NCBI GenBank assembly: GCA_946894095.1
Contig: OX335644.1
Coordinates: 10,273,595 to 10,337,594 of the forward strand
DNA from: Incurvaria masculella
Lineage: Eukaryota > Arthropoda > Insecta > Lepidoptera > Incurvariidae
Direction: 5' to 3'
Length of the DNA stretch: 64,000 nt
The stretch's first letter is position 1, and every line of letters begins with the position of its first letter. A program made the translations under genes and the position numbers. The notes beneath the pieces are model-generated. The model searched no databases. It saw only the letters and a list, made by a program, of their open reading frames with translations, and was not told where the DNA came from. Shown here in pieces: positions 12,761 through 56,600 of this stretch.

Positions 12761-15700
12761 TTAACCCTTATCTTCACCGTTCTTTAATGTCGGCTCATTC
12801 CAGGCTTGAGTCTTACAGGTGCCAAATATAACGAAGAACAGGTTGCCCAGTAAGTAGATTGCGGCAGATACGAAGAACACAGTCCTCCATTGCGCAGCGT
12901 TTGTCTACGGAAAGAAGCAGAAGAATTGCGTTTGAAGCATTATAATTTAAATGAAACGTATGTTTACTACATAAATGTGTGCACTGATATAAAAAAAGGT
13001 TCAAGTACGAATTCTAGTTGTTCGAATCGAATACAATTTACTGAAATAATTGCATTTATAGTGCAAATACGCGTACAGTCCGTTGGATTGTATTTCTATT
13101 ACTTCCAGTTCTTAGACTCTAAAATTTAATAATAATTACTAATGACATAACGAATGGTTAATATTCAGTAGGCTGACAACATATCACAGTATATTTTTTA
13201 CTATGCTAATATGGAAGACATTATAAATTGTTTATCTTTTAGCCGTTAGGAATCAAAGTATTCGGTTAAGGTACCTCATCATCTAGGATAAATCCGACAG
13301 CAAGTGGTGCAATCAGAGACACGACGTTGGCGATACAGTTGGTGATGCCCATCAGCTGGCCGACGAAGTTCGGGGCCATGTCAACGTGTACTAGCTGTGA
13401 AAAAAAAAATTAACACGTCATTTTCTTGACCATACACCTTTACAATCTACACTCGGAGGGAAGAGAACTATCAGTAAATGTCTTTGAAAGACCATAATTT
13501 ACAAACCAACCTGTTTTTCCCACTGTAGATTCATACCATATTTTAACGAGTAATAAATTGATAAAGATTCATAATTGGGTTTGTTGATAATAAACATTTT
13601 AAAGTTTTAATTTTTCTGTTCTTCTCAGAGGAGATTTTGTGATTTGGTGATATGTAAGAGAAGGAAGAAGATGGTGGTGATGACCATGTCTTTTGATGGC
13701 TCAGCAGGGTCAATAGTAGACTATGACTCTAAGGCCCAATTTTTAAATCCTCAGATAGTACTTATCGGACTGATAGTACATATTCAAGTTTGTCAAAAGA
13801 CGGATAGCTATTGCCGGAAAATTATATCTTTTATCACAATTATCTGACTAATTACTAATAAACATATGGATTTACTATATCAGATGGACAAGCAAATGCG
13901 CAAATAAATCGGTCGAATAGTTATCTGGCTGTTTTTCAGACTATTGAAAAATCAGCCCTAAAGAAGTAAAGACCCATCACGAAACCATGGTCACAAGGAA
14001 CATGAAAACATTATATTCATCACAGCTCCTAAGCCAGCTGATCAATGTGATAGTGCGTATGTTTGTGCCGTCCGAAATGAATCTCCTGTTAGCAGTAAGG
14101 TTCAGTGGGGTGTTAAAGTGAAGAAGTAATTCGTTCTCACAAGATATCCCGAGTACTGTCCAGCGTTGAGCGACACGGTGATGGTTATGAGGATGACGGC
14201 TGCGACAAGATTCCCGGCCGGCGCGTACGACAGCGCCACCAACGCCACCGCTGGCCCCCAGTGGGCTGAGAAACAACACCAATATTGGGACTACGATTAC
14301 ACGCACACAGGCCGTCATGAAATGTTATACGTGCAAACGTACAATCGAGTTAGTTCCCGGGAGGGCTGGGTTAGGTTAGGTTAGGTTAGGTTAGGTTAGG
14401 TTAGGTTAGGCATAGTTCGTAATCTGAGTGCAGTGTGCTGTCTCCGGATAATATTCATAAGGTTTGATTGTGCACACAGCCACAAATGCAATATTTTTTC
14501 TTAATGGTATCACTGAATTTCACATGGCAATGGGGGTAGAAAGAAATTAACTCAAATCTATTTTATGGAAAAAAACAATTCCAATCCTACCTACTGTTAC
14601 TATTCGAACCAACCTCGGTGCAGCAACATCAAACTCAACATAAAAGTGGTTATCGTTGCAATCAAGAAGAATTGTACAAGCATTCAATCATCAAGGATTA
14701 AGATAATAGCTGCAGTGCCATTAAGTGCTCAGTGCTCCAACATTCAAGCAAGGGTCGACCCTGGACCTGTGCACAAGGTTTGTCAAGGAAAACCAAATCA
14801 AGAAGCCGACAGGAGAACCAGCGTCTGGATTATTTGGAGGTACCCATTAAAAGAAAATGTATACAGACCACTCCCTATTCTAAACCTCCAAACGAAACAG
14901 CTCCATAGAAAATAAATCAATACACCACATTTCCGAGCAAATTAGGTGCAATGTTGGTAACTTGCCTTTATGTGCATGACTGTATTTATCTGGATGGAAA
15001 AACGGTTAATTTGACAGTGCTGCTATGACAATCTTTTCAACCAATGTACACGTACCTACTGATCCGGGAGACTTCACCTATGGAAAATGATTCCAAAAAT
15101 TACTCCATAAATTAACTTTTACAATTATAAAAGACGTTACCTATACTGTTCGAAACTTTCCTGACAGCAGTAACGCTCAACCACCTCTTGCGAACGGCCA
15201 TGTCAGCGACGTAGCTCATCGGGAAACTCATGACGTACATCCCTATGTAGGGCAGGGCAGACAACGTGCCCGTCTGCAAAACCACAAAAAAACCCTTTCA
15301 TAGGAGTACATATACTAAATTTTTTATAAGTAAAAAATCCAATAAATAGATATAAAAGACTTTCTTCGTTTCATTCAACGCAAAACGTTCAAGTCATTGT
15401 TATTTAAAATTGGTCCATAGTGTGACTTTATGAAATGGTAAAACAAACGATATGAATTTATGAAATTGAAAAAAGGGTAGATTTTAATTTATAAATGACA
15501 TAAAATTTTGAAAATACTATATTTTATGTTATAACCATTTGATTAACCATATAATAAAAATGAAAGCATCGTTATGAGAAATTAATATTTGCATTTGAAA
15601 TTAATTAACAAACAAAAAAAGCTTTAAAAATGTTTTGTTCTCTATAGTTGTACTTGTCTCGGGATACGTAGCACAAGTTCGGGATGTCACGTTATTTTCC

Positions 15701-29637: not shown

Positions 29638-32600
29638 TCACATTGTTGTTACCAATCCCGCAAATAAAGCAACTCTGGTAGTCTGATAGAGAGAAGGAGG
29701 GCCAGGAAACGGGAACTGAACGGAAGACGATGGCATTGCCAAGGAACTATTCAGTGACGATGACATTCTGTTTGACGATGGAAATCCTCTGGGTGATGAC
29801 ATGCTTTCTGATTGCAAACGAAGTGATTTTGGGATGGCAGTGACGGTCTTCGTGTTACCTTCAGTGCGAGTTGGTGGCTTGATGTCGGTACCCGTTGGTT
29901 TATCTGGGGATGATTCTGAAAACAATTTATTTTAATTTTATTATATGTTTTTGTAATTCACTATCATTGAGTTAATATATTATGAACTCAATGTTCACTA
30001 TACAACTTTGGTTGACTCTTCATTGCAGTGGTGGTGGGCTGTGCTGGCATGGTATTTTTTAAACAATATATAATAAATTATCATAAAATAAATATTTTAT
30101 ATTTATTATATATAAATATTTTTTTTAAATATTTTAAATATATCAACAATAACAATAGGATTATTAAGATTCTTCAGTTGTTGTTTTATTTGAATAATGA
30201 AATTAAAATATTAAGGTATATTTGATGACCTCGATTAGCCGATGCACACGAAAAATGTGTACTAATAATAACTTGGTTCATATCAATAACACTACAAAAA
30301 ATATCTAGACAAGACATGGTATTGACTTTACCTTGAACTATATAAACTATACGAATTCAGTTTAAGGTACCTATTTTAAAATTGTAAACGGTGATTTTTT
30401 TAATTGGCTCTGGATAATTTATTTTATGCATAATGCAAATGTAAATATATAGCTGTTAAGTTTCCATAAATAAATAAATAATTTTCAAAGTTAAATTTGA
30501 AAACTAGCTTTTGTGGTTTAATCATTGTAAAATATAAAGCGTTAAATCACGACTAGGTGTAGGATCTCCTCATGAGAAGGATTACAAATCAGGTGGATAT
30601 GAATCCAATTCTTGCTCAAACAGGTATTCCTTGGATACGAACCTAGTTGATTAGTGTCACGTTCGGCGGGGTCGTTCCATGCCTGCTTCTCGCAGGTACC
30701 AAATATGAGGAAGAACAGATTGCAAGCTATATAGATCCCCGAGGAGAGGAAGAATACTGTTCGCCATTCCGAAGCGTCCTCCTGCAAACGACACACATGG
30801 ATATTACTGACTCTCTCAGGGATATATTGCCAGTCATGGAGGTGAGGAAATTACCCTCCATATTGCCAGTATGGGTTGCCAGTTGCTTTGAAAATGGGGT
30901 TAATATTGAACATAGGTATTGCTATTTTTGATAATTTTTATTTCAGGCAAGCAAGAGCCCTCAACAAAAACCCAAAAGCCGCATGCGGGAACTAGTCTGA
31001 TCTTCTTAATTTCAAATTGGCTAAGCACTCCGGCCGGTGGGCAAGTTACATTTATCGAGTTCTGTGGAGTGTATATTTCAATGGTTTATTTCCGCTTATT
31101 CCGCCGGCGTACATTCGAGAGGTTAACCGCAACAGCGCTGCGCCCGCAACCACGGGGGGTGGCGGCTGCCGAGTGGTCCTACTCCGTACCGAGCTGCAAT
31201 ATTTTACGTGCACATTTTACCAATTGGTAGATCGGCGAATGATATTGCGGTAGCTGCAAAAGGTACAGATATGAGCTTCTCGTATCAATTTACAGGAAAC
31301 ACTTGATTTGTTATCCTACTGTAATATTTCAGAGCTGTCGGCGAAATTCGTTTTTAAAAAAGATCATGACGTTAGGATGACTTACTTCAATGGTACAAAC
31401 TGACCATTTAAAGAAACCAGTGATGTAGGAAAGGTAAGGATGTGACCTTTCGTACAATATGTTACCTGTTGCGGCACCAATAAACAGCAGCCCCTTATCT
31501 TTCTTTCTGCACACACGCATAAGGACAATGAGCCGCTGACTAGCGAGAAATTGGTGTCGCCGATACGTAGGACGTTTTGCTCCACTTACTGTTTCGAAGA
31601 GCATGTTTTTACGTAGTAATATTATATGTCAGTTACGAGTGTACGAAAATTAACAAGCCTGTTTTATGATTCCGACGAAGAGCGGCGGCACTATAGATAC
31701 GAATCGACTGGCGTTTTCAAATGTATGGAGAAATTGAAGAGCGCGCGCAGCGGGCGTTAAGGCGCTAGGACTAGCCAACTACTCGCGCCATACAAATGCA
31801 CTTTTTAACAAATGTAATAATATGTAGTGAAACGCTTCAGCAAATCCAAATAGAACTCCAGACTGATAATGGATTGTTAATATTTTTTTATTCCATCATT
31901 TATTTAAATAATAATAAAAATAAAAAAGTTGATTTTTCTCATTAGAAATCTGAAAGTAATTCGATTTCTAGATATAAGCAAAAACAGCATATATGCATAA
32001 ACAAAAAATTCCATTTGCTTTTAGATTTCTACATTTAGTCAAAAAAGTTCGGAAATGGACACCGTTTCCGCAATGTATTTTGGATAGAAAAAGGAAACAT
32101 ACATAAACGAAAATAATTCGATTCCTAGACAAGGAATCATATATTGTAAGGATGACACTTATAATCGTCAGACTTAGTTAGTTAACTTGGGGTGCCTCGT
32201 CTAACTTTGCGATTTGGCTAGTACCAGGCCCTTAAGCGAACTAACATTTGCGAGTCCGAGCTTGATTTGACAGCTTACTCAACGTTGCCGTAAATACGTC
32301 GACGTTGCCGTTTACGTCCACTCCGCGTTTTCATACAAATCGGAAGTCCGCGTTTGACTTTGACAGCTTGAAGAAGTAAAACCACAGAATATCTAGTAAA
32401 AACTTGTATGGAGTTTGGAGAAAACGCCAGTCGATCGGTTTGACATAAACGCCAATTTAGGTGAGAACTCAGACTGACCACTCTGCTTGGCGATACCGGT
32501 GGTGATGTCCTTATGACAAAACTCACCTCGTTGTTCAGTATGAGTCCGACGGCGAGCGGCGCCACTATAGACACCAGGTTGGCGATACCGTTGGTGATGC

Positions 32601-35600
32601 CCATGAGTGTACCAGCGAAGTTGGGGGCCATGTCGATGTGCACCAACTGTATAAGAACACGTATGCTGTTAGTGTATAACTAACATATCCTCTCTTTCAA
32701 ATATCTGAATTTACGAGTTCATACATTTATTTTAATGGTAACAGCTAAAAATATTGCTTACTACATACTATATTATATACACAAAATCGAAATTTGATGC
32801 AGAAACATGCTATATACATACACAGTGTTAACCCAAGTAGGCGACAATCCCGAAATGGGGTTATTTTGGGTCACATACTGATGCCGAAAAGTAGGTTTTT
32901 TTTTTGTTTTGACCTTTTCTTTTAAAATTTTCGATTTCTAATACTAGTATTGTTTTGTGTAGTTCTACTTTGTGTTGTCGGAAGTATAGAACAGTACTGG
33001 CGCCGGATGTATCACGATTATTAGTTAGCGTTGGACCCTTTGTCCGCTGCATAAGGTCTACTGTCGCAGCCGTAGCAGATTGCATATCGAGACTTGCCTC
33101 CCGTACGTGCGCCGGTATGTTTGCATACCCGAAATACTTGGCGAGTACGTCTAACTGCTCGTCTTTTGAAGAGTACCCACTCTTCACTTCTATTTAAAAC
33201 GTTGGTGAGTGAGCCTGCAAATTTGGTAATCTCCTTAAAACCTAGAGTGGAAGTCCTGGCTGTGGGGAGGAAGTGATTGGCAGCGGCGGCGGTGCGTAAA
33301 GCTGAGGTTTTGTGGTGGCGACTGCTGGCTGCGTGGACGGTGGTAAGCTCTCGGGATCGGTGTGTTGCGGCGACAATAAAAAACTATTAAATACAGTCCA
33401 CATAGACGGAACAAGTATGAAATCATAGTATTTCGTAAAAGGAATCGCACTGCATTAACAAAAAGTTCTAAAGTACAACGCTTTTAAAAATAAATGTGAA
33501 AATTTACATTCGGATCGACGCAATAAAATTGGCGGCGGCGCGCAGTCAGCTGCGAGACAGCAAACGCGTGACCTTGGCAGTGGCGCGAACACATGGCGTG
33601 CTTACACCATTCCAAAGGGAAATTGTCGCTAAGGTTAAAGTTTGGATTAAATCTGCAATTTTTTTTTAACTATTTTAGATTTAATTTTTAAACACCACAA
33701 ACTGATCAGTATACGAAATAGTTAAATAATCGGCATTAAAATAGAAATGTTGCGAAAAAAATTAACACCGTGTATATATTTTTTTAATAAAATTGATATT
33801 CGATGGAGATAATAAGAAGAACATAAATACAAGCCTTCTAGAAATTCCATACAAACTTCACCGTTGAATAAAAACCACAATATTTTAGGTTATTAATTTA
33901 TATTTTTTATTATAGATTATAAATTAATTAAAATTCCACTTACAGATTTTAACAGTTCATAAAATCATGTGATCGACGTGTTTAGAAGACGGCTTATTTT
34001 TTTTTAGAAAAAACACACGAATGAATCTATTAGCCGCGCAGTTAATGAAGCATTAACTAATTGTGAAAATTTGTAATATTTTCCCCTTTCAAGGATTTAT
34101 GTTATAAAATAAACCTTATTTACTCTTTTTTGAGAACGGTTCATAGTAATTTTTATTTTCTAGCACTGTAAATATACACATGTGTCTGCACTGAATATCC
34201 ATATTAATTTATATTGCGAGCTCTTATAACAATAAAAAGAAATGTTTTTAAAGCTTAATTTTGTACCAATCGTCAATGTCATTGTTGATCTCCGCAACAG
34301 CATTGCGTTCTGTATTTTATTGAAAGTGTATATCTACCCAATACTGATTTGACGACTAACTGTTTCGACTGTGTCAAATAAGCTATCTCAAATTTCGGAA
34401 TCCACCTAAAACTGTGTGGGTCCTCCCTTTATTTACTTACTAGGTGCTAGGGTTTATCCTGCCCGAATTGGGACCACCGCATTAAATAAAATTAATATGG
34501 TCGAAACGGCAATGAAAATTGTCCGGATTTTCTATTGAGTGAGGAAGGATGGGAGTGGACACCGCAATTTATCTGTACAACGGCAGCGTAGCCGCGTTTT
34601 AGTGATAATACATACACTAACAGCAGCTTCATAATGCCACTTGGAAGAAATAACGAGGAATGTGAAATAATAGTATTTTGCCGTTTCGTCGTTACACCAA
34701 AGCAAAGTTTGTGCTATGGATATGAAACTCATTAATTTTGGGCGAATATAGCTGACGTCATAAAGTATTTTTAAGTTTCATACCTGTGCTTTTTCTTGCT
34801 TATTAAAAAACGATTTGAATAGTTTTTAAGTAAGTAAGAAAATACAGTGCAATAAGAACATAATAAGTGGGACGCAAAAGCGGGCTTATCCCTCGAAGAT
34901 ATTTCTTCCGGCCGACCTTTGAGTGTTTGAAAAGTTCAATGGGGATATATATATTCGTAGGTAGTGGCGGTAGGTGAAGTACTTTGAGTGACACCTAGAG
35001 GCCTACGCAGCGTTAAATAGAACTGTGTAATGTAAGGAATGTTCTAACATAGCACCGAGTGCTTTGGTAATGGAATATGTTTAGCTTATATGAAAACCAT
35101 GAGTGTGTGTTAAAAAAATAAACAAAACACTTTTTAGGGCTCTTAAAGCTATCAGGGTGCATTGTGTATGTAATTTGCTCGACGTACCAGATATCCCGTG
35201 TAGTGTCCGGCGTTGAGAGCGACGGTGAGGGTGAGGAGCAGCACAGCTGCGGTGACGTCACCGGCCGGGGAATACGAGAGTCCCAGCAGGGCAACCGCCG
35301 GGCCCCAGTGACCTGCCGGACAACATTCAACGACGTTGCTTAAATTAATTAAAAAGAGTTGTGTGATCGATATGTTTGGAAGACGGTTTATTTTTTTAAG
35401 AAAAAAATACAGCAGGAATCTATTAGCCACGCAGGTATCCCTGTAGAAAAATATAAATATGATTATACTCGTAGGTCTGTGTAACGAGGTCATGGAAAAT
35501 TGTCCGTGTTTTTCATTTAGTTCACTGTAGTGGTGCTTGTATAATATATATTTGGTACCTACCAAACTCATTCTAATAAAATTTGATCCAAAGCATTCTA

Positions 35601-38600
35601 CAAAAGGTAACAGAGCGCTTATTTCATTGCTTAGATATGAAAATATTTTTCGACGTTAATCATTTAACAGATTTGGTTCGATTGAGGCCAATACAATTTG
35701 GTCATCAAAATCATCAGTTTAATTAGCATGGCATCAGTTGAATGGCTCGGTAGACTGCTCACCAGATAGTAATTGCTAGACTATAAATAGTTAGATAGAA
35801 AACATAGATGAAGTAATGATAGTACCAACGCCGCGCCGGGTAAAGGGCGAAAATAGAGTGACACTTTTGAAAATCTCTATAGTGTTGTAATCTGATGTAC
35901 TTAATCTAATTTATCTAGCTCTAATTAAAAAACATCCACGCACAAAAAACGTACACAAAAAATACCCTGATATATATATAGCCTCTCTCCTGCAACCACA
36001 AAATACATTACATAGGTTGACCTATAATATTTTACGTACATGCCTACAACCTCGTTGCCTACAATGGACAGTACAGTATACAAACTAAAATAAGTGTGCG
36101 TTCGCCATTATAATTTTCATTCATTATGATGTGGTATGCCAAATGAGGCCTACTACATATAATATAGTTCTTTTGTAGGCTACAATGTACCATCGTATTC
36201 ATTTAAATATAGTAAAATTGTTTAATATGTTTTTTTTACATAATTCCGTTTTCCCGGAGGGGTAGGCAGAGATGATAGAGAGCCATGCGGTACGATCACA
36301 GCACACCTATTTCCTTTCATCTACAAACATACATCTTGTCATACATGCTCTACGAATACGGGTGTTACGTACCAGATCTTTTCGAAGAATTACATCGATT
36401 TCTCGATGTTCTATATAGTTCTCCTAGGCCACCCGGGCACGAAACTTCGGCTCACTTCTGCTCTGTAAATTTGTTTTATTTTTTCGTCATCCGTTCGTTC
36501 CATATGTCTATACCATTATAACATTCCTTTCCTTTGTCTTTGGCATTTTCAGTAGCGTATAATTACCGACGGTGTTGGATAGTTTCCTTGCAGCCGTGAT
36601 GCTGAGTCAGCGCCGGCGGAGCGTCAGGTCGGAGAGGTAGCCCAGGGGGAAGCTCAGCAGGTACATCGCGAGGTAGGGAAGCGCCGTCATCACGCCGATC
36701 TGTGTCATATAATTACCGACGGTGTTGGACAGTTTCCTCGCGGCCGTGATGCTGAGCCAGCGCCGGCGGAGCGTCAGGTCGGAGAGGTAGCCCAGAGGGA
36801 AGCTCAGCAGGTACATCGCGAGGTAGGGAAGCGCCGTCATCACGCCGATCTGTGTCATATAATTAGCGACGGTGTTGGACAGTTTCCTGGCGGCCATGAT
36901 GCTGAGCCAGCGCCGGCGGAGCGTCAGGTCGGAGAGGTAGCCCAGGGGCAAGCTCAGCAGGTACATCGCGATGTAGGGAAGCGCTGTCATCACGCCGTTC
37001 TGTGTCATATAATTACCGACGGTGTTGGACAGTTTCCTCGCGGCCGTGATGCTGAGCCAGCGCCGGCGGAGCGTCAGGTCGGAGAGGTAGCCCAGAGGGA
37101 AGCTCAGCAGGTACATCGCGAGGTAGGGAAGCGCCGTCATCACGCTGTTCTGTGCCATATAATTACCGACGGTGTTGGACAGTTTCCTCGCGGCCGTGAT
37201 GCTGAGCCAGCGCCGGCGGAGGGTCAGGTCGGAGAGGTAGCCCAGGGGCAAGCTCAGCAGGTACATCGCGATGTAGGGAAGCGCTGTCATCACGCCGTTC
37301 TGTGTCATATAATTACCGACGGTGTTGGACAGTTTCCTCGCGGCCGTGATGCTGAGCCAGCGCCGGCGGAGCGTCAGGTCGGAGAGGTAGCCCAGAGGGA
37401 AGCTCAGCAGGTACATCGCGAGGTAGGGAAGCGCCGTCATCACACCGATCTGTGTCATATAATTACCGACGGTTTTGGACAGTTTCCTCGCGGCCGTGAT
37501 GCTGAGCCAGCGCCGGCGGAGCGTCAGGTCGGAGAGGTAGCCCAGAGGGAAGCTCAGCAGGTACATCGCGAGGTAGGGAAGCGCCGTCATCACGCTGTTC
37601 TGTGCCATATAATTACCGACGGTGTTGGACAGTTTCCTCGCGGCCGTGATGCTGAGCCAGCGCCGGCGGAGCGTCAGGTCGGAGAGGTAGCCCAGATGGA
37701 AGCTCAGCAGGTACATCGCGAGGTAGGGAAGCGCCGTCATCACGCCGATCTGTGTCATATAATTACCGACGGTGTTGGACAGTTTCCTCGCGGCCGTGAT
37801 GCTGAGCCAGCGCCGGCGGAGCGTCAGTTCGGAGAGGTAGCCCAGAGGGAAGCTCAGCAGGTACATCGCGAGGTAGGGAAGCGCCGTCATCACGCTGTTC
37901 TGTGCCATATAATTACCGACGGTGTTGGACAGTTTCCTCGCGGCCGTGATGCTGAGCCAGCGCCGGCGGAGGGTCAGGTCGGAGAGGTAGCCCAGGGGCA
38001 AGCTCAGCAGGTACATCGCGATGTAGGGAAGCGCTGTCATCACGCCGTTCTGTGTCATATAATTACCGACGGTGTTGGACAGTTTCCTCGCGGCCGTGAT
38101 GCTGAGCCAGCGCCGGCGGAGGGTCAGGTCGGAGAGGTAGCCCAAGGGGAAGCTCAGCAGATACATCGCGAGGTAGGGAAGCGCCGTCATCACGCCGTTC
38201 TGTGACATACAAATTCGGTATCATTATCTATCAACGAGTAACGATTCAATCATTATGAATGCGACGGAAAGCCTCGCTAACAGAAAAAAATATTCTATTG
38301 TCATCACATCATCACCATACTAGATACAAAATTGACAAATAGACAAATCTTACTTTTTCCGTTTCATTTTCATGATTCCTCTTGACGAATCAAGATTAGT
38401 TGATTCGACGTATTTTTAAAGGAATGAATCACTTTAATCTAGGAAGGTAATTATATTTGTGTGAATAAAGCACACATCTGTAAAACAATAAAATATTTTT
38501 TATATTTCCATTGAGAAATATATTTGTCATTTATACAACGATTATTGTAGTTTTGTCTTATTGTTGCAGATCAATATTTTTAATTTCCTATGTTAGATTA

Positions 38601-41600
38601 GGGAATCAACTTAACCTTTAATAATGTAATTATAAATTAAATATTTTCATGACATTATTATTTCACCATTCAACCTTTGATAAATACAGTTTAGGTGAGA
38701 ACAGCAATATATTTACAACAACGAATTGAACTCTCTAAAAAATATCTCAAAAAATATCACTTTGCTATCAGTATTATTATCCCAGTGATGTCTCATCTTA
38801 CAACTTTGCCTTTTTTATAGAATGAGAGCTAAGGGTGCTTTCAGAGACGTTGTAATCCAAAGAGACAAATGCAAATATAACTTTGACATTCTTATCTTAT
38901 GCATTGCTTCTGCAATTTAAGACATACAATTATCTACTAACAAAGACAAAAATTTTATTTTGTTCAAATATGTCTGGTATTTTTTAAATATGATTGATGG
39001 TCGATATTTTGAAAAACTTTAATTTTTATTTTCATCCAAGCTTGTTCACGGCCCGAGGGCTGTATACACGATAAGATTAAAGAGCAACCAAGAAATCCAG
39101 ATGTCATAATTCACGGTTCATACATTAATTAATCATTAACTAAAAAATATTCTTTAATACAACTGGGCATGGACGAGTACCACATGCAACGGCATTATAT
39201 TATCCCAACACATCGCATTTTTAAAGTAATTCGGTGCCATGCCACGACCGTCCGAGCAAGACTACATTGAACTGAATGCAAAACAGGGACCATTTTTTAT
39301 TGCCGCTGCAACCATCTTTTCATTTCATGTGATGGTACCAACCCGGGAGGGCTTAACCCTACCACCTAGTAGGGAAAGAGGACCTACCGTTTTTACGAAA
39401 AAAATGAAACAGCTCGCATTTGTAACGAAAACGCTAATCCAACTCAGAAAGAGAATGAAAGTGGTACATGAACGGGCCGGGATTTGAACCCATGACCTCT
39501 GGCATCTATTTTGGTAATTTTCTTTATATTTTCTTTAAAAAAAAATATAGATTCCATTGGACATGCATTAGGCCTATTCTTCTACAGTCACTTCCTGCCG
39601 TAATTCAATATATAAACCTGTATTGCAAACATTTACTGACTAGAATCATTAAACGTATTGCCCTCGTCATCGAAGCCGTATAACACAATAAAGCCAGCAG
39701 AATGTCCGGGACGTATTGTGTCCTACCTCCTCCAAGCGCCAGCGGCTGCGCGGAAACCGAATCCGATATAGTTTTGGTTCTGAGCAGCCGTTTGCGAGTG
39801 GAGGGAACCAGCCAACGTTCACCTCGATAATTCTACTACCCAGTAAAATCAATTTTTCTGAAATCATTCATAAAAGAAATTTTTATGATTCTTACTTTTT
39901 ACTAAACCAATTGATATAAGAACTACATCACGTGCTCTCATCTCCTTTCATAAAACATGCCGCCGTGTCGGCACGAGCACTCAGCAAAGTGAAAAATACT
40001 GAATAATATAAAAATAGAAGGCAATAATATCCACCTGACTTCAACGTACATAAGTATTTTATTTGTGTGACTTCACGGGTAGCGAACAACTCGTCTTCAG
40101 TGAACAATCAAATATGTCACAATATCTCCTTTATTGAGAAACCAAATTGATATAGCGAAAATAAAATAATTAATTTCTAAAAAATTGGAAGTTCCCACCC
40201 ATAGACTTAGTAAGAGTACCTCTAAATTTGAGTTAAAAATATTAAAACGAAGTACAGTAATTAATTGATTGAGCAGGACACACATTGTTACACATTTTAT
40301 ATCTTACAACATACAAAATAAAAAAATGTGTAACAGATCAAAGCATGAAATTATATTTTTTCAAAGCGCTCTCATTTTTATTTTAATGTTTCTCGAACGA
40401 ACTTCTCAACAATTGAGTTATGGAAAAATAAAGAGTTAAGGATAATTTTGAAAAAAAAAAGGATCGACGTGACCAAACCCTAATGATATGAATTTAACGG
40501 TTCTTTAAAAAACTGTGAGAGCAGGATCGAGGACGTATACGCGTCTCCGGGGAGACAGACACACAAACTTCTTCAAGAATCGTCGTCATGGCAGCTGGCA
40601 AATTTCATAGACGGTCAAAAAAACTAAACGGACCATCCCGTGCTCTGTGCTGACCACGGAGTAAGAAAGGGCGAGAATGGCGACAAACGTACCCACGTAT
40701 CATTTACTGATGGTGGTAAGTGTGCCCGAATCCGTGCAGTTGTTACGTGTCGTTGGAACTCGAGAACATCAGGAGTGAGCGAATGCGTAAGCAAACTGAC
40801 TGTCCGGCTCTACCATCAGTGTATGTATTTTCACTAAGAAGTGGCTACGCTGCCGCTCTTATATTAATAAAACGTGTTTTATTCAAATCGTGCAGCACAA
40901 AATAACATAGATGAAATTATAGCTGAACTATTACATAAATAGTTAATGTTTGTTTGTTTGTAGGGGGGTAATCTTTAAAACTAAGAAAGCGGTCTTCAAT
41001 ATTATTTCACCTGTGGGAAGCTTCATTATCTAGCATAGGATATATTATATTTTAATATTCTTTCTGCCTACAGAATAAATATCAAAAATATAGTATAAAT
41101 CGTTTTCTGTCGATTTTAATATTCATACGTTTTCTGTTTAGGTATATGAATGAGTATCTGTCACAACTCCCGTCTTTCCTTGCTAGATGGTGCTGACCGC
41201 TTTCGAGAAACGTCAAATAAATCCAGAACAAAAGACGTACGGCCTGTATCTCGACCCCGAGGACGAGCTTCATGTAGGAGGGCATCTCCGTGAGCAGCGT
41301 CCAGAAGCCCCAGTTCTGTCCGCAGTGCGCGACGATCAGCGACCAGAACGGCAGCGACGTGAAGATCGCGCCCCACGGCGTGGAATATTTCTGAAACAAT
41401 TACACGACGTGCAACATATCCACAAAGTCAATTTCTAAGCACGCAGCAAGCTATCCGTTTTCGAAGAAATATTTTTGAATTTTTATCTCTGGATGATTCA
41501 AATAATTTAGAGCCTAAAATATTTACCAAATTGTGGGGTTCCTTGCCCCAAGAACCTAAGGTCTCGACAGGAAAAGCAATACATTCTTAGATTAGCCTTA

Positions 41601-44600
41601 TTGTTGAGTACTTCAGGTGTTTTTTAGCGAGCCGCCCATTTGGACAGCCATCCGAGATGTGGCGGAAACATGTGAGGAAGCCAATGTATCCACAAATGTG
41701 GCGTTCCACATCATTGCCTTACCTTTCGACCATGGAATCTGACCTTATACCGTCATCTCTGTTAAGCCACATTAGTTCGAGTATAGAAGGAATGTTGATC
41801 GAGCTCAGGGCTCCTTTAATAATATTGTTGAGCTCAGAATGACGAGAGAACGTACCGGCACATTGACAACAACTAAGACCATGACACCATTTGGCATCGA
41901 CTTCGATTCCTCAAATACATGCGTGGGGTTGGCACCTAAGCGGTTGTTTTTTTTTTTTTACAAGAAACCCTCCGCACACTTTAGCCTCATTGACATAGAC
42001 AAGCGATGTCCGTCCCTCGCCAATGTGTGCTTGGGGGTGGCGGGTATGACGACGTAGGGTCCACCATAGCAGCGATACCATACCAAGCTAGCTGAAGATG
42101 GAGGACTAGCTCCAACTGATCGCGTATAGGACCCCGTGGCCATAAACTTGATCTAAAGTGATATCTTGGCTCACCTTTGCCCCACCGACATGGCCGAGCT
42201 TGGTCTGTATGTAAGCTCGCTTCTTCGCCGATATGTACTTGGAGGTGGCGGGTAAATCGGCGCCGAGCCATATGTACAGCACGCACCAGAGCAGCGAAGG
42301 TGTGCCGAGCGAGTAGAAGATGGAGGCCCAACCCTACCTACTTGCGCTCAGGAACCCGGTGGCCATCACCTTGATCTAAAGTGATCTCTTCGCTTACCTT
42401 AGCCCCACCGACATGGCCGAGAGAGGTCTGTATGTAAGCTCGCTCCTTCTCCGATATGTACTTGGAGGTGGCGGGTGAATCGGCGCCGAGCCATATGTAC
42501 AGCACACACCACAGCAGCGAAGCTGTGCCGAGCGAGTAGAAGATGGAGGGCCAACCCCACCTACTCGCGCTCAGGAACCCGGCGGCCATCAGTTCGATCG
42601 CCGTGCCGAGCTGCCCACCTGAGAAATCATTGATTGATTGAATGCATTTATTAAAAAACAATTAAGAACTTCGCAAATGCGGTGGTCAACTTAGGGTAGA
42701 TATAAGGTAATAGGTGATATTGTTTGTCTGTAAATGTTTCGTCAGTTGTTCCTAGAAAATCCAGACCTTGTAGACCCTTCTACTCCGAATGTTAGAAGGA
42801 GCTGCATAATGGTATTCCTCTGCCTTCATTATATCAATGTCAGATAATGCAATAGTGCGATGTCCACATTGTACCTACCTATCAGAACCCAGTTAAGGAT
42901 ATCCTTTATCTATGGGGTGGTAAAATATGACACGCACTTTCGGTCCAGCTATTTTTCCATTGTGTGAACCCTGGCCAGCCGGCATGGGTTTCGCAGCCCC
43001 CGAGAAAGTTCGAAAGTCCATCTTAGATGAGGTCATGGCTTACGCCGTAATACGGTGCGCTTCACAAAGTTTCCTACTTACTTTCTTTCCCTTATTGATA
43101 AAATATAGGAAGTTAAAGACCAGATTGATTGACTGGATAAATTAAGCATGAGAGCATTTCGCTGACGACGGAAACAGAGTAATGTTAGCTTTAAAAATGA
43201 TGCAGACGTGTTTGAATGTAAACATTCAATCAGGCAGCCTCAGTCCAGTGGAATGGACTGGAGTCAGTTCACGATATAGCATCGGCCGAGTTGCATCTTC
43301 TGTGACATGTGAATTAATCTGGAATAAATATCCGTAACGAGACGATTGTGTTTATAATTCTAATAGTAAGTACAAAATAAATAACGAGAGGTAAATGACG
43401 GAAATGCAACATTGTTTTCGTTACAATACCAACCCAGGATTCGGGCTGTTCATAAACGAATATGACACCTACCTCCATATATGATGGTAGTGAGGCGACT
43501 TTTCTCTTCGAGGGGGGCCCACTGGCCCAGCAGGCTGTGCACGCAGGGAAGCAATACCCCCTGGGTGAGACCCTGTAGGACTCGGCACGCGCACACCGCT
43601 TGCCAGCCTCCCTGCACTCAAGAACACGTTCATTCGTTTATTTTTCAGGCGTACACTTACTCTTGGATATATCACTATTTTTAAACAAACCACCAATGGC
43701 ATACAAATAGGAAATGTTTCTCCGACTTCATGAGCTAAGAGCATGTTGTACTTGTTTGGAAGGAGGAACATATTTTTTATGGAATTGGTCAAATATTGTT
43801 AACACTAGTATGGCCCTAGCTCAGGGGCGCAGAGAATTACTTTCCATGCCACGGATCATTTAATCTAAAGTTAGATCCCCGCTTCGTTCGTACACAACTT
43901 TCTTTTCCTTTTTTAGTTGGATAAGTTGGAATGTGCATTTCACCTCCAATTCGGTATCCATGTGAAAATATTGGTCCTCTTTCTCTACTAGGCAAGATTA
44001 CGCCGGCCCGGGTTGGCACCATCGCATGTGAAAATGTCGAAGCGGCATTGAAACTGTTTTCGAGTTTTGGATCCAATTCAAGGTAGCCGTGCTCATAAAG
44101 GGAAGGTTATGGCATGCACCTAATTTCTCCGAGAATGCGGTGTGTTGGCCTAATAACAGACGGTGGTTGTGGTCAGCGAGAATGGAAGGTCCTTTCATGT
44201 TCGCTGGGCGTGGTATTAGCTATCCATGTCCAGTTACATAAAAAAACACCTCCTATCATGATATTAGGCTAACATTCCGCATGGGTATAGCAGGCGCAAA
44301 TCTTTAATGCCGCTCTTTCGTTGTGTTCGCGCATGTGTATAGTCAAGATTAAATGTTCAATTTAATTTTGTTTAAGAAAATGGTATTCACGCACATGAAC
44401 ACGAGTGCTATTTGCAGAATTCACCGGAAAGCAAGGATACATCATTTAAGAAAAGAAAAAAATAATTAATTTAAAAATAGAGGAATACCCGCCATTGCCG
44501 AAAGGTTTGCATGCTTGTTAATTTTCAGCCTTATAATGTGCTTATAACGTACTTATTTTTACAGCTATCTTTCTTTGATAAATGTGTGCTTGCTGCAGGG

Positions 44601-47600
44601 TTGATTTTACAAATATAAATCATTTCACTTTAATTAACTTAAATGCGAATAATATAAGAAAATATATTGTTTTATAAATGAGAAATCCTCTTTGCATGGG
44701 ACTTTAGGGCTGATTTGTTTTGTTCATCAATTAAATCCTTTGATTAGTAATTAATACGAATTGTTTTGTAGTTCTCACTTGGACGAGTTATTTTTTATAT
44801 TAGAACTAAAAAAATATTACATACTAGGTTTACTTCACAAACTAACACTTCATAACTGTAGGTACCGAAAGTATTATAGAAAGCACAAAAACCACCACCT
44901 AACTAAATCTCTGAGCGTACAAGCGCTCGTTGCAGAGCGGGGATTGCGGGGTTAGTTACGGGGAAGGCGCGGGCGCAAACAAGCGGTTGCTAAGGTAACG
45001 AGGTGGCGTGGGGGTGAGCGCGTCATTTCTCCCGCCCCGCGCCCCGCACGCTCACCGAGCTGACCTAAAATTCGACTACTGCGCAGGTACATACAGCGGC
45101 ATTTAAGTTTTGCGCGTACTATACCAGACGTCAGGACCTTCGTTATAATGCACGGTGTTTGGGCCACTTAAAAATCTTTCTCACATTTTAAAAAAAGGCA
45201 TTCCAATTGAATGGAAACGCTTCAGCATGCATGGTCTTAAATATTTTTGACCCACCGGATGCATGTGACAGTTACCAAAAAGGTTAAGCAGCGCGCGAAT
45301 ACAGCTCGCTGCCAGTGTGCTTCTTGTTCCGTTTGAACCGCGAGACGCGCAACATGTTTTCGAGTGAACGCATTCTTCAAACATTATTGTTTTGGACGTT
45401 TTTTGCCTCCTAGGAGTGTTATATGACCTCTCAATAACGAACTATTGGAACGATCTAGTGAACCTGTGCTAAAGACATTGGATTGCAGTGCGCGAACCAC
45501 CACGCTGGTGTGTTCGCCCATATTCATGAGAACCCAAGGTGCTGAGCACACCAAGGTGCTGAGAACTGATGCCATCAACCTGTGAGTGTTTTCCAACGAT
45601 TTATTTTGGTTTGTTGTATTTTTGAGAGTGTCGAAGACTAGAAGTGGTTCTGTTTCATCCCGCCGTTCTATCTATTTGCATTATAATAATTTACGCAACA
45701 ACCGCATTTCTTAGAGTCCTCTGTGGCTTTACACCCCAAAATGGTCCTATCCCACCTGGATGAAATCTTAATCAACCTATGGATAGTAAAATTATTCGTA
45801 GTTTGCATGCTTCATTCCCGCTGTAACCTAGTTAGGTTATAAATTTTACTACCTATTTTTATTCGTCTGCTTGTACGTTTGATTGTACCATGTCGTTCAA
45901 TCTAAATTTCGTATCGATTAAACTGTGTAACCTAAACGGTTAAGAAAGATATAATTCATTAAATCCAGCAAAAACAATTTAACAAACCTAATATTTATTT
46001 TATACAGATATCGCTTCTGGAAACATTACTATTACGTTCATTTTCGCTTGCGCGCCGATCAGTGTTTCAGATTAATGTCGAGTTCACCTCGTACTCGAGT
46101 TGTGTCTACCTACATGTTGCATATTATTTGCTATATAATTTCACCGCCTATTATTGCATTTGCTATTATGATATTTTTGCCGCTCGCAATTAATCGTTAA
46201 CGGATCGGCATTTATTTTATTTAATTTCTTCTGCTATATTTATTTTTATAAATCCGCTATGGGTAAAGATAAGGAGAGGTTGCTCCTCCCAAGTCGAGAT
46301 TATTAGAAGCCCGCATTCAAAAATTTTTCAACTGCTTGCAAAATACATACGATGCATCCCGCAATATATCCTCACAGTAATTGCAGAACCGGTTTCTCAG
46401 TACTGCGTGTAATATTGAACAGCTGAGATCTGATTATTTAAAGTCAGTTGATGAATTTAAATTGGAAAAAATGCAATATGAATATGAAAAATGAATTTGA
46501 TCCGGATTATAATGCCTTTATTGCTTTCGAAGATGTTTATTCTGCTATTACAAGAACAGACGGCAGCTCGCCCGGACGGCGAGCGGCCGCGCCCCATCGT
46601 CGCGCGTTTCACGCGCCGCGCCGTCAAAGGCGAGGGGCTGCAGGCAGCGCGGGTGCGTCGCGGGCTCAGCTCCGCGGACATCGTCGCCGGAACGCCGAGG
46701 AAGGTTTTCGTGAACGAGAACCTGACCTATGGAAACCGACAGTTGTTTCGTGCCACCCGCGTCGCCGCCAAGGAACGCGGCTTCAAGTACGCCTGGACCA
46801 GAGACGGCCGGATCCTCGTGCGACGCAGTGAAGGCGCCCGGGTGCTCCGCATCCGCTCACAGGCCGACCTCGCACAGCTCGACGGCGCGCCAACCTCTCC
46901 GCCGCCCGCAGGACGCGACAGAGCGGCAGCTCCGGCCGCCGCCGCCTCCGCCGCCGCCGCCTCCGATGGAGATAAAGCTTGAAGGATCGATGCATGCAAC
47001 TAATATAAATCTAGTGTTGATACTATCCGGGTTTGCATACTTGATTTTTTATTTAAAAACTCTAACAAACTTTATTTTAATTACTTATAGTTACTTGTTC
47101 ATTACCATTTCTTTACATCATTACCACATACCAAACTACTTTTGCCGCATTTCACCTGACATCAGACTGTTGATTCAATGCATCAATAAGGAAACAATGT
47201 TTTTATTTTTATTGAAAGCACGGATGAAAGTGTTATATGTAAATCGTTACACTCAAGGTTACACTCATGGATGACATTGAGCCTGACTGTTTAAACGAAA
47301 TAGTAGACTGTATCGACTCGTGGACTGACACTTTAACTATTACTGACAATGGGCATCTTACCATCATTCATTTAAACATTCGTTCAATTAGGCGAAACTT
47401 CAAGGAATTGGCTATGACTTTACAGAACTCATTACCAACAATATCAATGATTATTTTGTCTGAAGTAAATATAAGACAAGATGAAGTTGATTTCTTTAAT
47501 ATTGATGGATTTCCCAATAAATACCACCATCTAAGGGCTTCAGGACGAGGTGGCGGGATCATTATTCTAACTAAGGAGGAGTTGCCGTGCGTGGCCTGTG

Positions 47601-50600
47601 TGCCGTGCGAATTCAGTGCATCTTGCGAGACGCTCGAGCTGAAATTTTCACGAAGGGGGAGCGGCGGTTGGGTGGGGAGAGCACCTGCGCGCGCGCTGGC
47701 AGCGGCGGAGGACACAGTCACAGTGCTGGCACTGTACCGTCCCCCCTCCAAGTCCCGTCCCGTTTTCCTGGCGGAACTCGAAGCCTATCTCGCGCGCTCT
47801 GAACGCAACAAGCGGCTTGTGATCGTGGGCGATATCAATATTGATTTAAAAGCGACAAATAAAAATGAAGCGAACATAGCAGATTATGAGGACCTTCTGT
47901 CGTCATTTGGATTTGATGCCTGCATTCAAGATTATACACGAGAAGAAATCGTAAACGGCAAACTTGTTAAATCGTGCTTGGATCATGTATTTGTGCGCTG
48001 TCCAAATTGTGAGTTGTCTTCAGTTATCGCTAGAGTAAAAATATCCGATCACTATATTATTGGTGTCTGTTTAATAGATAGGTCCGCCCCGATTCCAGAT
48101 AGTTTAGGATCGGACAGTCAAGTACGTATAACCAATTACAAACTTTTGCAGCGTAAACTACCAATGTACGACTGGAAGGCGTTGGCGCTGCAGTACGATG
48201 AGCCCGAGCAGCTTTGTCGAATGCTTGTAGGTGTATTCAAAAATATTCAGCTGTCATGCGAGAAAACAGTACCACCGAGGAGCGCTGGAGGGCGTGAAAC
48301 AAAGAAGTGGGTCACCCCAGTGCTTCTTGAGCTCATTGGGGAAAAGGACAGGCTGTTTAGGAGATGGAAAAGCTGCCCGCGCTGCAGCCGGCACAAGCTC
48401 GCTTATAATAGAATAAAAAATAGACTTGCTCGCGAGACGTGCGCTGCGCGCAATGTTTATTACCTTGACAAATTTTCACAGGCGCAGGGAAACTTAAAGG
48501 AAGTGTGGCGTATAATAAACGAAATATTAGGCAATAGTAAACGATCACTCGATGACAACATAGTTCGGTACATGAAAGGACCACCTACACACATTGCCAA
48601 TAGTTTTGCAAATACTTTTCAGAACGAAGTGACGAAGGTAATCCACACATGTGATATACAAACAATTACACCGAATAACATAATCACAAGAGAAAATCTT
48701 ATATTTCCTTCATGTACTCCTGCTATAATAAATAAAATAATATGTTCTCTGAAAAATAATAAGGCTGCAGGTGAGGATAATGTAAGGCCAGCTGATTTAA
48801 AAGTAATATCAGAGGATGTCAGCACTGTCATTAGCAAAATTATAAATAAGGCAATTGAGTGTGGGAAATATCCAAACATACTAAAGACTGCAATTATCAG
48901 ACCGATATATAAAAAAGGAAGTCACTCTGACTGTAGGAACTATCGCCCAGTCTCAATATTGTCAACCATAAATAAAGTTTTCGAAAAATACTTGGTCTCA
49001 CATTTAACTGGCTTCCTAAATACTTACAAAGTTATTTCTCCGTGTCAATACGGATTCCAGGCAAAGAAAAGCACTAGCGACCTTCTTTCAAAATTTTCAG
49101 ATCAGGTAAATACCGCCCTCAACGAACGCAAGCATGTAGTGATGGTCCTTATAGATTACAGCCGCGCATTCGATACCTTGAACCATGATAAGCTGGTACA
49201 AGCTCTTGAACGCAGCGGGGTGCGTGGGCGAGCCCTTGCACTGCTAGCCTCCTACCTCCACGACAGACCCTCGCGGGTGAAGATCAAGGGAGCGATCAGC
49301 GATGAGATCAAAATGGAGACCGGTGTTGCTCAGGGTAGCTGCTTGGGACCTATCGAATATCTCATCTACTGCAATGATATGGTCCAGGTGGTCAGAAAGT
49401 GCCTTATTTACCAGTTCGCAGACGATACCATCATCGTGTCAATTGACGAAGACCTGAGTGAAGCTGTCAAAAGGCTCGCGATAGACTTCGATAATGTAGT
49501 CAGATGGTCCCATGACAACGGACTGGGTCTGAATAGCCAGAAGACAAAAGTAATGCACATCCGATCCCCCTACCTGTCATTTGGGAGCGAGGTGGCAGTC
49601 GAGGTGAAGGCACACTCGAACGCCTGCTTACATGTAAGTGGCCCGTGTGCTGGCGCCGCCGCGGGCTGCAGGTTGCTCGAGGTGGTGGAACAACATAAAT
49701 ACCTAGGGCTTATAGTCGACAGCCACTTTTCATGGAAGATTCATGTAGACCATATCTGCACTAAGTTGAGACTTTGTCTTAAAAAGATTTACGCTCTCAA
49801 ATATAAGCTCCCACCCAAATTGCTTCTGGTCGCGTACAGATCATTAGTCGAACCGATAATTATGTATGGGGTAAGTGTGTGGGCTCTTACGTTCGACTCG
49901 TACTTGGATAGGGTTCATGGTCTCCAGTTTAGAATACTCAAAATTATGGCCCCATCCTCAGAACGGTCGAGAGCTAGGGAGTGCCATGAACACCTGTTCA
50001 AGTATTTCAAAGTGTTACCGGCCAAAGCAATGTGTGCCCAAAAAATTATATTGTGCAATTATGCTGATGAATCTCGTAAGATACCTATTTCACATGACTA
50101 CCCGACAAGACTCAAACTTGACCTTCAGCTCCAAATTCCGACCACTTTAAATTACTTCGGCAAAAGAACTCTCAATTATGTAGTTCCTAGATTATTTAAC
50201 TCTTTGAACCCAGGCTTGAAAAAAAAAGATTTGTCAATATCAAAATTAAAAATGGAAATAAAAGAATTGTTGATAAATGGATTGTAATATTTTAATGTAA
50301 CTGAAATTTTGTAATACTGATTAAGGGTGAATACATATATATATATTATTGTGTTCATGTATGTATGTGAACTTTTTGGTGTGTATAAAAAAAAAAAGTC
50401 TCAAATGCTAAAAGTTTTAAATGCTAGCACACGAAAACAGGTTGTCACGCGCAGACAAACCTTCGGGTTTCGCGCGTACAATATACTATATAAAATGTAA
50501 AATGTGTGTTCATGAAATAAACGCCACATTGTGGCACTGAAACTAAAAAAGAATTGAAAGGAGAAATCAGAGAAAACGTTAGAACTCAATTTGATTACTT

Positions 50601-53600: not shown

Positions 53601-56600
53601 ATAATTATTAATCGCCAGGAATATCTGGCGACATTATTATACACTAACCGATTCTTTTAGCTAAGACTAGGGTTAGGCTATTGAATAATCCTGATATATA
53701 CTTTCTAAATCTAAGAAATCGATCATTTCAAAGTTTGAGCTATTTGGATTTGAGGCTCCTTCTATCTCAGCCGAAATAAAAATTTAAATTAATTATAACC
53801 TTGGTGCAGCACCTGCCCTCAGAGTAGCTCAATTCGCGTCGCTGATATTATTAAAAAAATACTACTGCGATATGTCGCGTGATGCATATGGTGTAAAATT
53901 TGATTAGTACTTTTCATCAAATGCCACCAACCCAGGCGGGCTTAACCCTACTACCAAGTGGTCCCAGAAAGGGACCTATAGTTTAACATGGATTCCGAAT
54001 CATGATACAGCTCACAATCGAGACGAAATGCACCTATACAACTCAGAAAGAGAAAGAAAGTGGTCTATGAACGGGACGGAGATTTTAACCTCAGACCTCT
54101 GGCATTCAAGGCAATTCGCTGCCACACTTGAGCAACGAGCAGCTAAAACTCTTAGTCTCCATTTGTTTCCAACAGGCGGTACGTGTCTTCATAGCTGTGT
54201 CGTAAAACGCAGTATCATGGAAAAATGCGAAAATATTGAGAAGTGGGCTGACGAAGTAACATGAGAGAGAAGCCATTATAGACCGAGCATGAACCTAGCA
54301 TAGCGCGCTGTGCTTACAAGAGAAACAAAGTATGGGATTGAGACGTCAACTCATGTATCACTACCGCTATTTAGAGAGAGATGAAATATATCTACCTGAT
54401 GAGACAACTTTTCGAATCGGTATAAGTACATAGGTGCTCATCAAATGTGAAATGCTTATTTCTGAAATCTTGATGATGTCTTTAGTTTTCGTTGATTGTT
54501 AAGTGAACAGGCGTAAAAACAAAAAAAAAAACTGGTAAATAAAGGTGACCCACTGATTCTTTGGTCTTGAAGCTACATGGAGATTTAGAGTTTTTTTTAA
54601 TAGAAAATAAATTTCTGTACATTTTGTATGAAACAATGTTGGTCTCATATCAGTTGACCCTGTGTGTCTTTGCATTCTAAGCCTATGGTAGCTATGACAT
54701 CATTTTTTGCAAAAAAAGATAAAGGGAACTCCACGTGCCAACGTACCAGGGCGGCGGAGACCGGCACGAGCAGCGTCACTAGTCCGTTGACGCCGATGCA
54801 GCCGAGGACGAGCCGCTTGCCGCCGAACCGTCGCGCCAGCTCACCGCCCGGGACTTGCAGCACCAGGTAGCCCCAGAAGAACGATGACAGAATCACGCTT
54901 CGGGTGCCGACGCCCCAGTCGTACCACTGCGCAGTTCAACGTATTACTCGAATTAATTTCAAAGTGGAGTGCCCCTATAGAAACGAGTTTCGGTTACTAC
55001 TCCTGTCCTGCCATTCTCAGTGGCTTTAACATATCAAGATAACGCATCCACGAGACATTTGTATGTATTTAATGGACACGTCATTACCATTACATTATTA
55101 ATTTAAAATAATAATGCAATATCTACATTGAAGATTGTATATCTGCATCAGATTTTGAAAATAATTAGAAACATGTTTGGTCAGTACTGAAGCAGGATTC
55201 GAACCTGCGACTTTAGGTGATATCAGGATAATTACCGTCAAAATGCCTTTGTGTAGAATTAATGAGCGAAATCAGCGCCATCTAGTAATAGCAAGGGGAA
55301 GCATTGTGTCGATCCGAATGTAATCGACATATTTTTGGAGTGATGTAATTGTCTGGATAGCTCAGTTGTAGAGCAGTTGAAATATAATGTGTGCTGCTAA
55401 GGTGCGACAGTGGATGTTTTACATCAAATGTTTTGTTTAATTTAAATCAATTTGTCTTGCGTGGTCCAAAATGATGACATTAACGAGAAGATTGCAAAAA
55501 ACACTTACAACATCGATGGAGTTGTTAGGGTCCGTCATGGAGACAATGCCGACGCTCATGTTGACCCGCATGCTGTACCCGAGCAACATCGCCAGGAACA
55601 GCAGCAAACTCTGCACATGCCGCACTCCGAGCGCTCCGCTACTCTCTGCAAAAATGTGTTAATAGTTAGCACAGCAATGGTCGGGATCCATCATGGAGAC
55701 AGTGACGACGCCCATGTGGACCCACATGCTGTAACTAAGCAACATTGCCAGGAAGCAGCAACCTCTGCACGTATAGTTCACCGAGCGCTCCGCTACTCTC
55801 TGCAAAAATGTGTTAATAGTTAGCACAGCAATGGTCGGGATCCATCATGGAGACAGTGACGACGCCCATGTGGACCCACATGCTGTAACTAAGCAACATT
55901 GCCAGGAAGCAGCAACCTCTGCACGTATTGTTCACCGAGCGCTCCGCTACTCTCTGCAAAAATGTGTTAATAGTTAGCACAGCAATGGTCGGGATCCATC
56001 ATGGAGACAGTGACGACGCCCATGTGGACCCGCATGCTGTAACTAAGCAACATTGGCAGGAAGCAGCAAGCTCTGCACGTATAGTTCACCGAGCGCTCCG
56101 CTACTCTCTACATATGAAATTATCATAGTTAACACAGCAAATGTCGGGATCCGTCACAGAGATAATGCCGATGCTCATAGTAAGCCGCATGCTGTACCCG
56201 AGCAATATCGCCAGTAATAGCAGCAAACTCATGTTGATCCGCACGCTGTTCCCAAAGAACCATACTCTGCACTTGCTGCACACGAAGTTGTTTACCTCTT
56301 TCCTTCTGAATTTTATGTGATTCAAGCTCAGGCAGGAATTGTTGGGATTGTCATAGTACAGTTACAAAAAAGGGGGTTACCGAAAAAGTTTTTCGGAAGT
56401 TTTTAATTTTAATTTTATAGATTTCGATGTGTTCTTTCCGAATGTTCACTTTGCCACCTCGTACCTCGGCCGCTAGCGTCGCCATATTGGAAAAATGGCG
56501 CTCAAAACAGTTTTTGACCATACATTATTTCTGACTCATTTATTTTTTCACGTTAAAACTTTTGATTCTACAAAAATGGTTACTACAAAATGTTTTTTAC

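Follow-up and report, generated by a model that had tools for sequence, protein, structure and literature searches.

In the exon clusters of Dscam and of MRP (multidrug resistance-associated protein), the latter a membrane transporter, diverged exon copies are separated by full-length introns. In Drosophila, the Dscam clusters consist of 48, 33, and 12 exons and the MRP cluster of 8, all annotated as mutually exclusive (PMC6071210, excerpt). Coding VNTRs, such as LPA KIV-2 and those of the secreted mucins, represent another kind of intragenic amplification (PMC11201333 and PMC10983947, excerpts). Tandem exon duplications can also go unannotated; the excerpt of the paper that deals with such cases cites an earlier study in which about 10% of animal genes were found to contain exons duplicated in tandem (PMC9013439).

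The locus described here, gene C, resembles Dscam and MRP in carrying several tandem copies of one internal exon, which we denote E6. Unlike the exons of those clusters, the E6 copies are 93-100% identical to each other, are separated by 17-nt spacers, and, in ten of eleven cases, look non-functional. As in the LPA KIV-2 and mucin VNTRs, going by the excerpts, coding units were amplified in tandem within a gene; however, the VNTR repeats belong to the coding sequence, whereas those of gene C are probably intronic after copy 1. The likeness to the unannotated duplications, as far as the excerpt of PMC9013439 describes them, is that the copies adjoin the parent exon and that some may be expressed; gene C differs in the number of copies (eleven), in their 17-nt spacing, and in that three further exons are affected. 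Tandem exon duplication itself is of a known kind, and the combination of eleven near-identical copies, 17-nt spacers, and three further echoed exons makes gene C an unusual variant. Within the open-licence PMC literature, we found neither tandem-exon transporter arrays in Lepidoptera nor near-identical duplicated exon arrays, and no precedent for an array in an SLC17 gene, in line with the preliminary description of this DNA, which knew of none. Of what was retrieved, a paper on structural variants in lysosomal storage disease was judged, by its listing, to be unrelated, and another concerned human splicing.

Three SLC17-type genes and the E6 array

The window, that is, the whole 64,000-nt stretch of Incurvaria masculella DNA that was analysed, contains three SLC17-type genes, each with nine recognisable coding exons (E1-E9):

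2463 to about 10419, plus strand: gene A
23567-12761, minus strand: gene B
55643-30545, minus strand: gene C

The exon boundaries were derived from alignment of the paralogues together with GT-AG sites, and the 5' ends of genes A and C are incomplete. Apart from E6, gene C consists of the following exons:

55509-55643, minus strand: E1 (TM1 exon, intact copy), with the exon start 2 nt further upstream
54747-54926, minus strand: E2
43473-43611, minus strand: E3
42398-42618, minus strand: E4 (intact copy)
41241-41390, minus strand: E5
35188-35312, minus strand: E7
32527-32646, minus strand: E8
30545-30781, minus strand: E9, up to the end of the open frame

All nine exons of gene C have GT-AG sites and an open frame, and, when spliced in silico with copy 1 of E6 alone, they form an open frame of 480 codons. 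The resulting product contains the MFS_1 domain (PF07690, 3e-44), aligns with sialin (PDB 8dwi, 1.2e-83) over most of its length, and also matches VGLUT2 (the structures matched are PDB 8dwi, 8u3d, and 8sbe). This domain, combined with the near full-length similarity to sialin and VGLUT, places gene C with copy 1 in the SLC17 group of MFS proteins, supporting the SLC17-type assignment made previously; we therefore predict that gene C encodes an SLC17-type transporter, a putative inorganic phosphate cotransporter. Among 7993 candidates scored, 856 proteins are homologous to the gene C product at E<=1e-20. The best 120 of these 856 are mostly lepidopteran, with a caddisfly and a beetle also represented, and show identity up to 67%, so that the list probably includes no near relative of the source species; proteins of Danaus plexippus and Ostrinia nubilalis are 66% identical to the gene C product over 92-93% of its length.

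In the alignment with sialin, E6 extends from TM8 (NGVMTALPYLAMYLLSFPLGYLSDL) through the loop that follows and into TM9, of which it covers the first half; the TM numbers are those we assume from general knowledge of the MFS. Hence the identification of E6 as a TM8 exon in the preliminary description is supported, with half of TM9 to be added. The same description called it exon 7; among the nine coding exons that could be placed, E6 comes sixth, counting the TM1 exon as E1, and the earlier number fits if there is one further 5' exon. In the alignment, the sialin and VGLUT2 structures contain one TM8 segment, unlike the gene C array.

The E6 copies were identified by Tandem Repeats Finder as one array at 36558-38209 (period 150, 11.0 copies, 95% matches, 0% indels, score 3017). 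On the minus strand, the array unit pairs a 133-nt exon with a 17-nt spacer downstream of it, and the 11 exon starts are spaced exactly 150 bp apart; the previously claimed copy number and period are thereby confirmed, as is the claim that both neighbouring paralogues have a single copy, a 133-nt exon at 5872-6004 in gene A and at 15273-15141 in gene B. With eleven adjacent copies, AG at 11 of 11 acceptors, and GT at 10 of 11 donors, the array represents tandem exon duplication. Its components are:

38067-38199, minus strand: E6 copy 1, 133 nt, proposed working copy (best acceptor, best profile score)
36717-38049, minus strand: E6 copies 2-10 with 17-nt spacers, proposed intronic spares
37917-38049, minus strand: E6 copy 2
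37767-37899, minus strand: E6 copy 3
37617-37749, minus strand: E6 copy 4
37467-37599, minus strand: E6 copy 5
37317-37449, minus strand: E6 copy 6
37167-37299, minus strand: E6 copy 7
37017-37149, minus strand: E6 copy 8
36867-36999, minus strand: E6 copy 9
36865-36866, minus strand: donor of copy 9, CT not GT
36717-36849, minus strand: E6 copy 10
36567-36699, minus strand: E6 copy 11, with an in-frame TGA at 36609-36607 (W31)

The spacer after each of the first ten exons reads GTAATTATATG[A/G]CACAG, with CT replacing GT after copy 9; copy 11 is not trailed by a spacer, and the sequence continues into the intron. The spacer sequence corresponds to the 9 nt that open the E6-E7 intron and, with one mismatch, to roughly the last 10 nt of the E5-E6 intron, 2-3 nt being common to both, a make-up that would fit microhomology-mediated tandem duplication. 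The eleven exons comprise ten different sequences, one of which is shared by copies 2 and 7, and private variants are present in copies 1, 3, 4, 5, 6, 9, and 11. Besides copy 1, the exons fall into three types that are set apart by residues 1, 2, 10, and 17, namely, alpha (copies 2, 7, and 9), beta (3, 5, and 8), and gamma (4, 6, 10, and 11). These types are interleaved along the array, which suggests repeated unequal exchange, and the G-type spacer stands before all three beta copies and before no others.

Splice sites, reading frame, and substitutions

To score the splice sites, an acceptor position weight matrix was built from the 23 other introns of genes A, B, and C, in this window only. 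The acceptor of copy 1 scores +5.3 bits, which is within the range of the 23 other acceptors (0.1-16.3, median 6.0, leave-one-out), whereas the acceptors of copies 2-11 score from -4.5 to -1.6 bits. Among 1530 decoy AGs taken from the introns of genes B and C, with exons and arrays masked, 6% score at least as high as copy 1, compared with 44-67% for copies 2-11. The donors of copies 1-8, 10, and 11 are identical (TCG/GTAATT, 5.5 bits); that of copy 9 scores -0.4. Judging by these scores, usable splice sites are not present in every copy, as they should be in a mutually exclusive cluster: the acceptors of copies 2-11 are decoy-like, and the copy 9 donor is lost.

To our knowledge, animal introns do not get as short as 17 nt. 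Human introns of 43, 49, and 56 nt are treated as tiny in the excerpt of PMC4463651. The 17-nt spacers can hardly serve as introns, so that the copies would be joinable only with the spacers retained, and copy 1 is apparently the only copy with a real intron in front.

The reading frame is open across copies 1-10, as the preliminary description had stated, and ends in copy 11, where W31 is changed to TGA. Used alone, each of copies 1-10 yields an open 480-codon product in silico (disregarding the lost donor of copy 9), and with copy 11 alone the product stops after residue 305. As the unit length of 150 is divisible by three, every copy read through would add 50 residues. Forms with 1, 2, 3, and 10 copies contain 10, 11, 12, and 19 hydropathy windows, respectively, at a cut-off of 1.2, and 6, 6, 6, and 9 at a cut-off of 1.5; at 1.2, this crude measure detects only 10 spans for a single copy, where 12 would be expected, and thus says little on topology. 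The earlier claim of one extra membrane span per copy is borne out only weakly: one window is indeed gained with each copy at the lower cut-off, but the higher one shows no gain with two or three copies, and every unit also carries half of TM9.

Compared with the array consensus, copy 1 has four differences, every one of them silent, and no missense change; the differences at sites 39 and 55 (T at both) are private, that at site 54 is common to copies 2, 7, 9, and 11, and that at site 78 to copies 2 and 7. Each of copies 2-11 contains at least one amino-acid change or stop. Copy 1 also ranks first by profile score, with 95.6 bits, the other copies scoring from 92.4 down to 85.1. Seven of the nine distinct nonsynonymous changes (N1I, G2S, F17L, P18H, D24E, W31stop, and N42K) are located at positions that are at least 88% identical across 121 homologous segments from 120 proteins (P 0.006; 14 of the 44 E6 positions are conserved at this level, and the 88% cut-off was set post hoc). 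The changes are mildest in copies 2 and 7, namely, L10I, present in 14 of the 121 homologous segments, and F17L, present in 4. Of the 19 changes in the whole array, 9 are nonsynonymous versus about 70% expected, a mild silent excess (P 0.016-0.034); if the six that occur solely in copies 1 and 11 are omitted, the fraction becomes 8 of 13 (P 0.26-0.35), at low power. The silent excess stems from the edge copies, and, at this low power, no constraint is detectable inside the array. Taken at face value, the overall ratio would be a sign of constraint; the 8 of 13 is unremarkable.

We searched for tandem TM8 segments in related proteins. Two adjacent TM8 segments were found in none of the best 120 of the 856 homologues; P0002 from Manduca sexta has two TM8 segments, but these belong to two successive transporter units. 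A protein search with a three-copy query (150 aa) returned both of 2 candidates, each with a single TM8. The ten-copy query (499 aa) returned 19 of 136 candidates, the best at 70 bits, among which no adjacent TM8 repeats were recognised; 16 of these 19 matches were checked for doubling and showed no adjacent TM8, with P0123-P0125 outside that check. In five of the ten-copy matches, the alignment spans 15-25% of the query, with 36-49% identity, and we take these partial alignments to be extensions of a single-copy match. As a separate observation, in P0058, an SLC17 prediction from Arctia plantaginis and one of the 120 listed homologues, the E7 segment is doubled in tandem (residues 330-412); this is possibly a second tandem exon duplication in the family, or could be a gene-model error.

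Proposed origin of the array and alternative explanations

We consider it fairly probable that the array arose by repeated local tandem exon duplication, with copy 1 as the one working copy and copies 2-11 as mostly silent, decaying spares. Under this scenario, a 150-bp segment made up of the TM8 exon and short intronic flanks (about 10 bp on the 5' side and about 9 bp on the 3' side) would have been duplicated at 2-3 bp of microhomology, and unequal exchange would then have amplified the segment to 11 copies. The spliceosome would normally join E5 to the copy 1 acceptor and the copy 1 donor to E7, the outcome being one ordinary 12-TM transporter. Copies 2-11 would sit in the E6-E7 intron and decay, mostly ignored because they lack a branch-point/pyrimidine-tract region of their own and because the 17-nt spacers are too short for introns. 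The splice sites used, the route of amplification, and the silence of the extra copies are all inferred from the DNA sequence.

Some features of the array speak against a single working copy. Copies 1-10 are each open when used alone in silico, with copies 2 and 7 only mildly changed; the array as a whole shows the mild silent excess, albeit one from its edge copies; and the copy 1 donor recurs unchanged at nine downstream copies (2-8, 10, and 11), which would allow the exon to lengthen in 150-nt steps. Such lengthening underlies the foremost alternative, itself unlikely in our view, in which the copy 1 acceptor is used together with a downstream donor, and the first n copies form one exon that adds 50 residues and an extra TM8 unit per copy. 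The same donor at copies 1-8, 10, and 11, the unit length divisible by three with a frame open through ten copies, and the window gained per copy at the lower hydropathy cut-off are all compatible with multi-copy inclusion. However, nothing is gained at the higher cut-off for two or three copies, the units end in half of TM9 so that the product would not be a clean helix insertion, the internal copies are changed at conserved sites, use of the copy 11 donor would yield a truncated protein, and no protein among the 2 and 136 candidates of the three- and ten-copy searches has recognisable adjacent TM8 repeats. Given the decoy-like internal acceptors, the changed conserved residues, the stop, and the dead donor, proteins with several TM8 segments, as envisaged in the preliminary description, are not supported as a likely outcome. 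We consider it improbable that the array is a living TM8 VNTR, in which nested identical donors would produce a series of transporters from one TM8 unit upwards, copy number would vary between individuals, and membrane topology would become a length polymorphism. We rate even lower the mutually exclusive choice of a single copy per transcript, as in the Dscam or MRP arrays, which had also been suggested for this locus. Copies 1-8 and 10, nine in all, retain AG and GT without a stop, the three types differ in residues 1, 2, 10, and 17, and the very short spacers would bar splicing of two copies together; yet the copy 1 acceptor alone scores like those of the other introns, with the internal ones at the level of decoy AGs, and 17-nt spacers, we reason, leave no room for selector or docking sequences. 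Moreover, three of the four type-defining residues (N1, G2, and F17) are at least 92% identical in the homologues, so that the changes look like decay rather than tuning.

The remaining explanations call the array or the gene itself into question. Assemblies are error-prone at tandem arrays, and the true genome might contain one or a few copies, or some other number; the identity of the copy 2 and copy 7 exons means that the exact number could be off. Nevertheless, we consider an artefact very unlikely: an assembler duplicating one copy repeatedly would not yield ten distinct exons, private variants in seven copies, and a G spacer linked to the beta copies, and the interleaving of the types, along with this spacer pattern, is evidence against simple assembly duplication. 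The least probable of the explanations is that gene C is a dying pseudogene, with the arrays as part of its decay. The extra copies or fragments at four of its exons, the stop in copy 11, and the weak acceptors of E2 (0.1 bits) and E7 (0.3 bits) would agree with such a fate, but all nine exons are open with GT-AG sites, and the product retains the above similarity to the Danaus plexippus and Ostrinia nubilalis proteins.

If the extra copies are silent, as the scenario with copy 1 as the working copy implies, the array would be a clear natural example of eleven-fold multiplication of an exon without breaking a working gene, which would stay unbroken because such short spacers could not be spliced out and a real intron is present only before copy 1. 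The array also provides a test of spliceosome choice among ten identical donors 150 nt apart (300 nt where copy 9 intervenes). Should any copy beyond the first be translated, the transporter encoded by gene C would vary in its number of membrane segments.

Other duplicated exons and repeats in the window

A blastn search of all 27 exons of genes A, B, and C against the window (E<=0.05) detected exon-derived extra copies or fragments for four of the nine exons of gene C (E1, E4, E6, and E8), compared with no extra copies in the introns of genes A and B for any of their 18 exons (P 0.007, post hoc). Besides those of E6, these are:

55684-56253, minus strand: four degenerate extra E1 copies upstream of the intact E1 (period 154), with blastn matches at 55684-55797, 55838-55951, 55992-56105, and 56147-56253 (two pieces)
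42013-42376, minus strand: extra E4 copy and two fragments, directly downstream of the intact E4 (period 223)
42175-42376, minus strand: the extra E4 copy, 92% identity, with an in-frame TAG and without the exon start
42062-42143 and 42013-42045, minus strand: the two E4 fragments (blastn)
31665-32510, minus strand: two short E8-like fragments (blastn), at 32487-32510 (24 nt) and 31665-31700 (36 nt)

The sole further match beyond the exons and their copies is that of E1 of gene B, 20 nt in a GC-rich simple repeat at 46936-46955. No recognisable donor was found in the extra E1 copies. For both E1 and E4, an intact exon lies beside dead copies, which is the model we propose for E6, and the duplicated copies and fragments at E1, E4, and E8 point to a mutational habit of the gene C locus. 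The divisibility of the E6 unit by three was also considered as a selected trait and dropped; the E1 and E4 units, of 154 and 223, are not multiples of three.

Several additional sequence features were observed in the window. Between the extra TM1-exon copies nearest the intact E1, there is a TGCTAAC sequence along with a TTTTTGCAG acceptor. On the plus strand, the E2-E3 intron of gene C contains a long open frame of 1014 codons (47243-50284), which encodes an endonuclease domain and a reverse transcriptase domain (RVT_1, 1.1e-30), and ahead of it lies a GC-rich frame at 46488-46979; the entire element, 46488-50284, antisense to gene C, resembles a non-LTR retrotransposon. An AT-rich tandem array (period 40, 6.2 copies) is located at 7212-7446, between E6 and E7 of gene A, and between E6 and E7 of gene B, GGTTA is repeated in 8.4 perfect copies at 14369-14410, which we take to be the insect telomere repeat TTAGG in another register.
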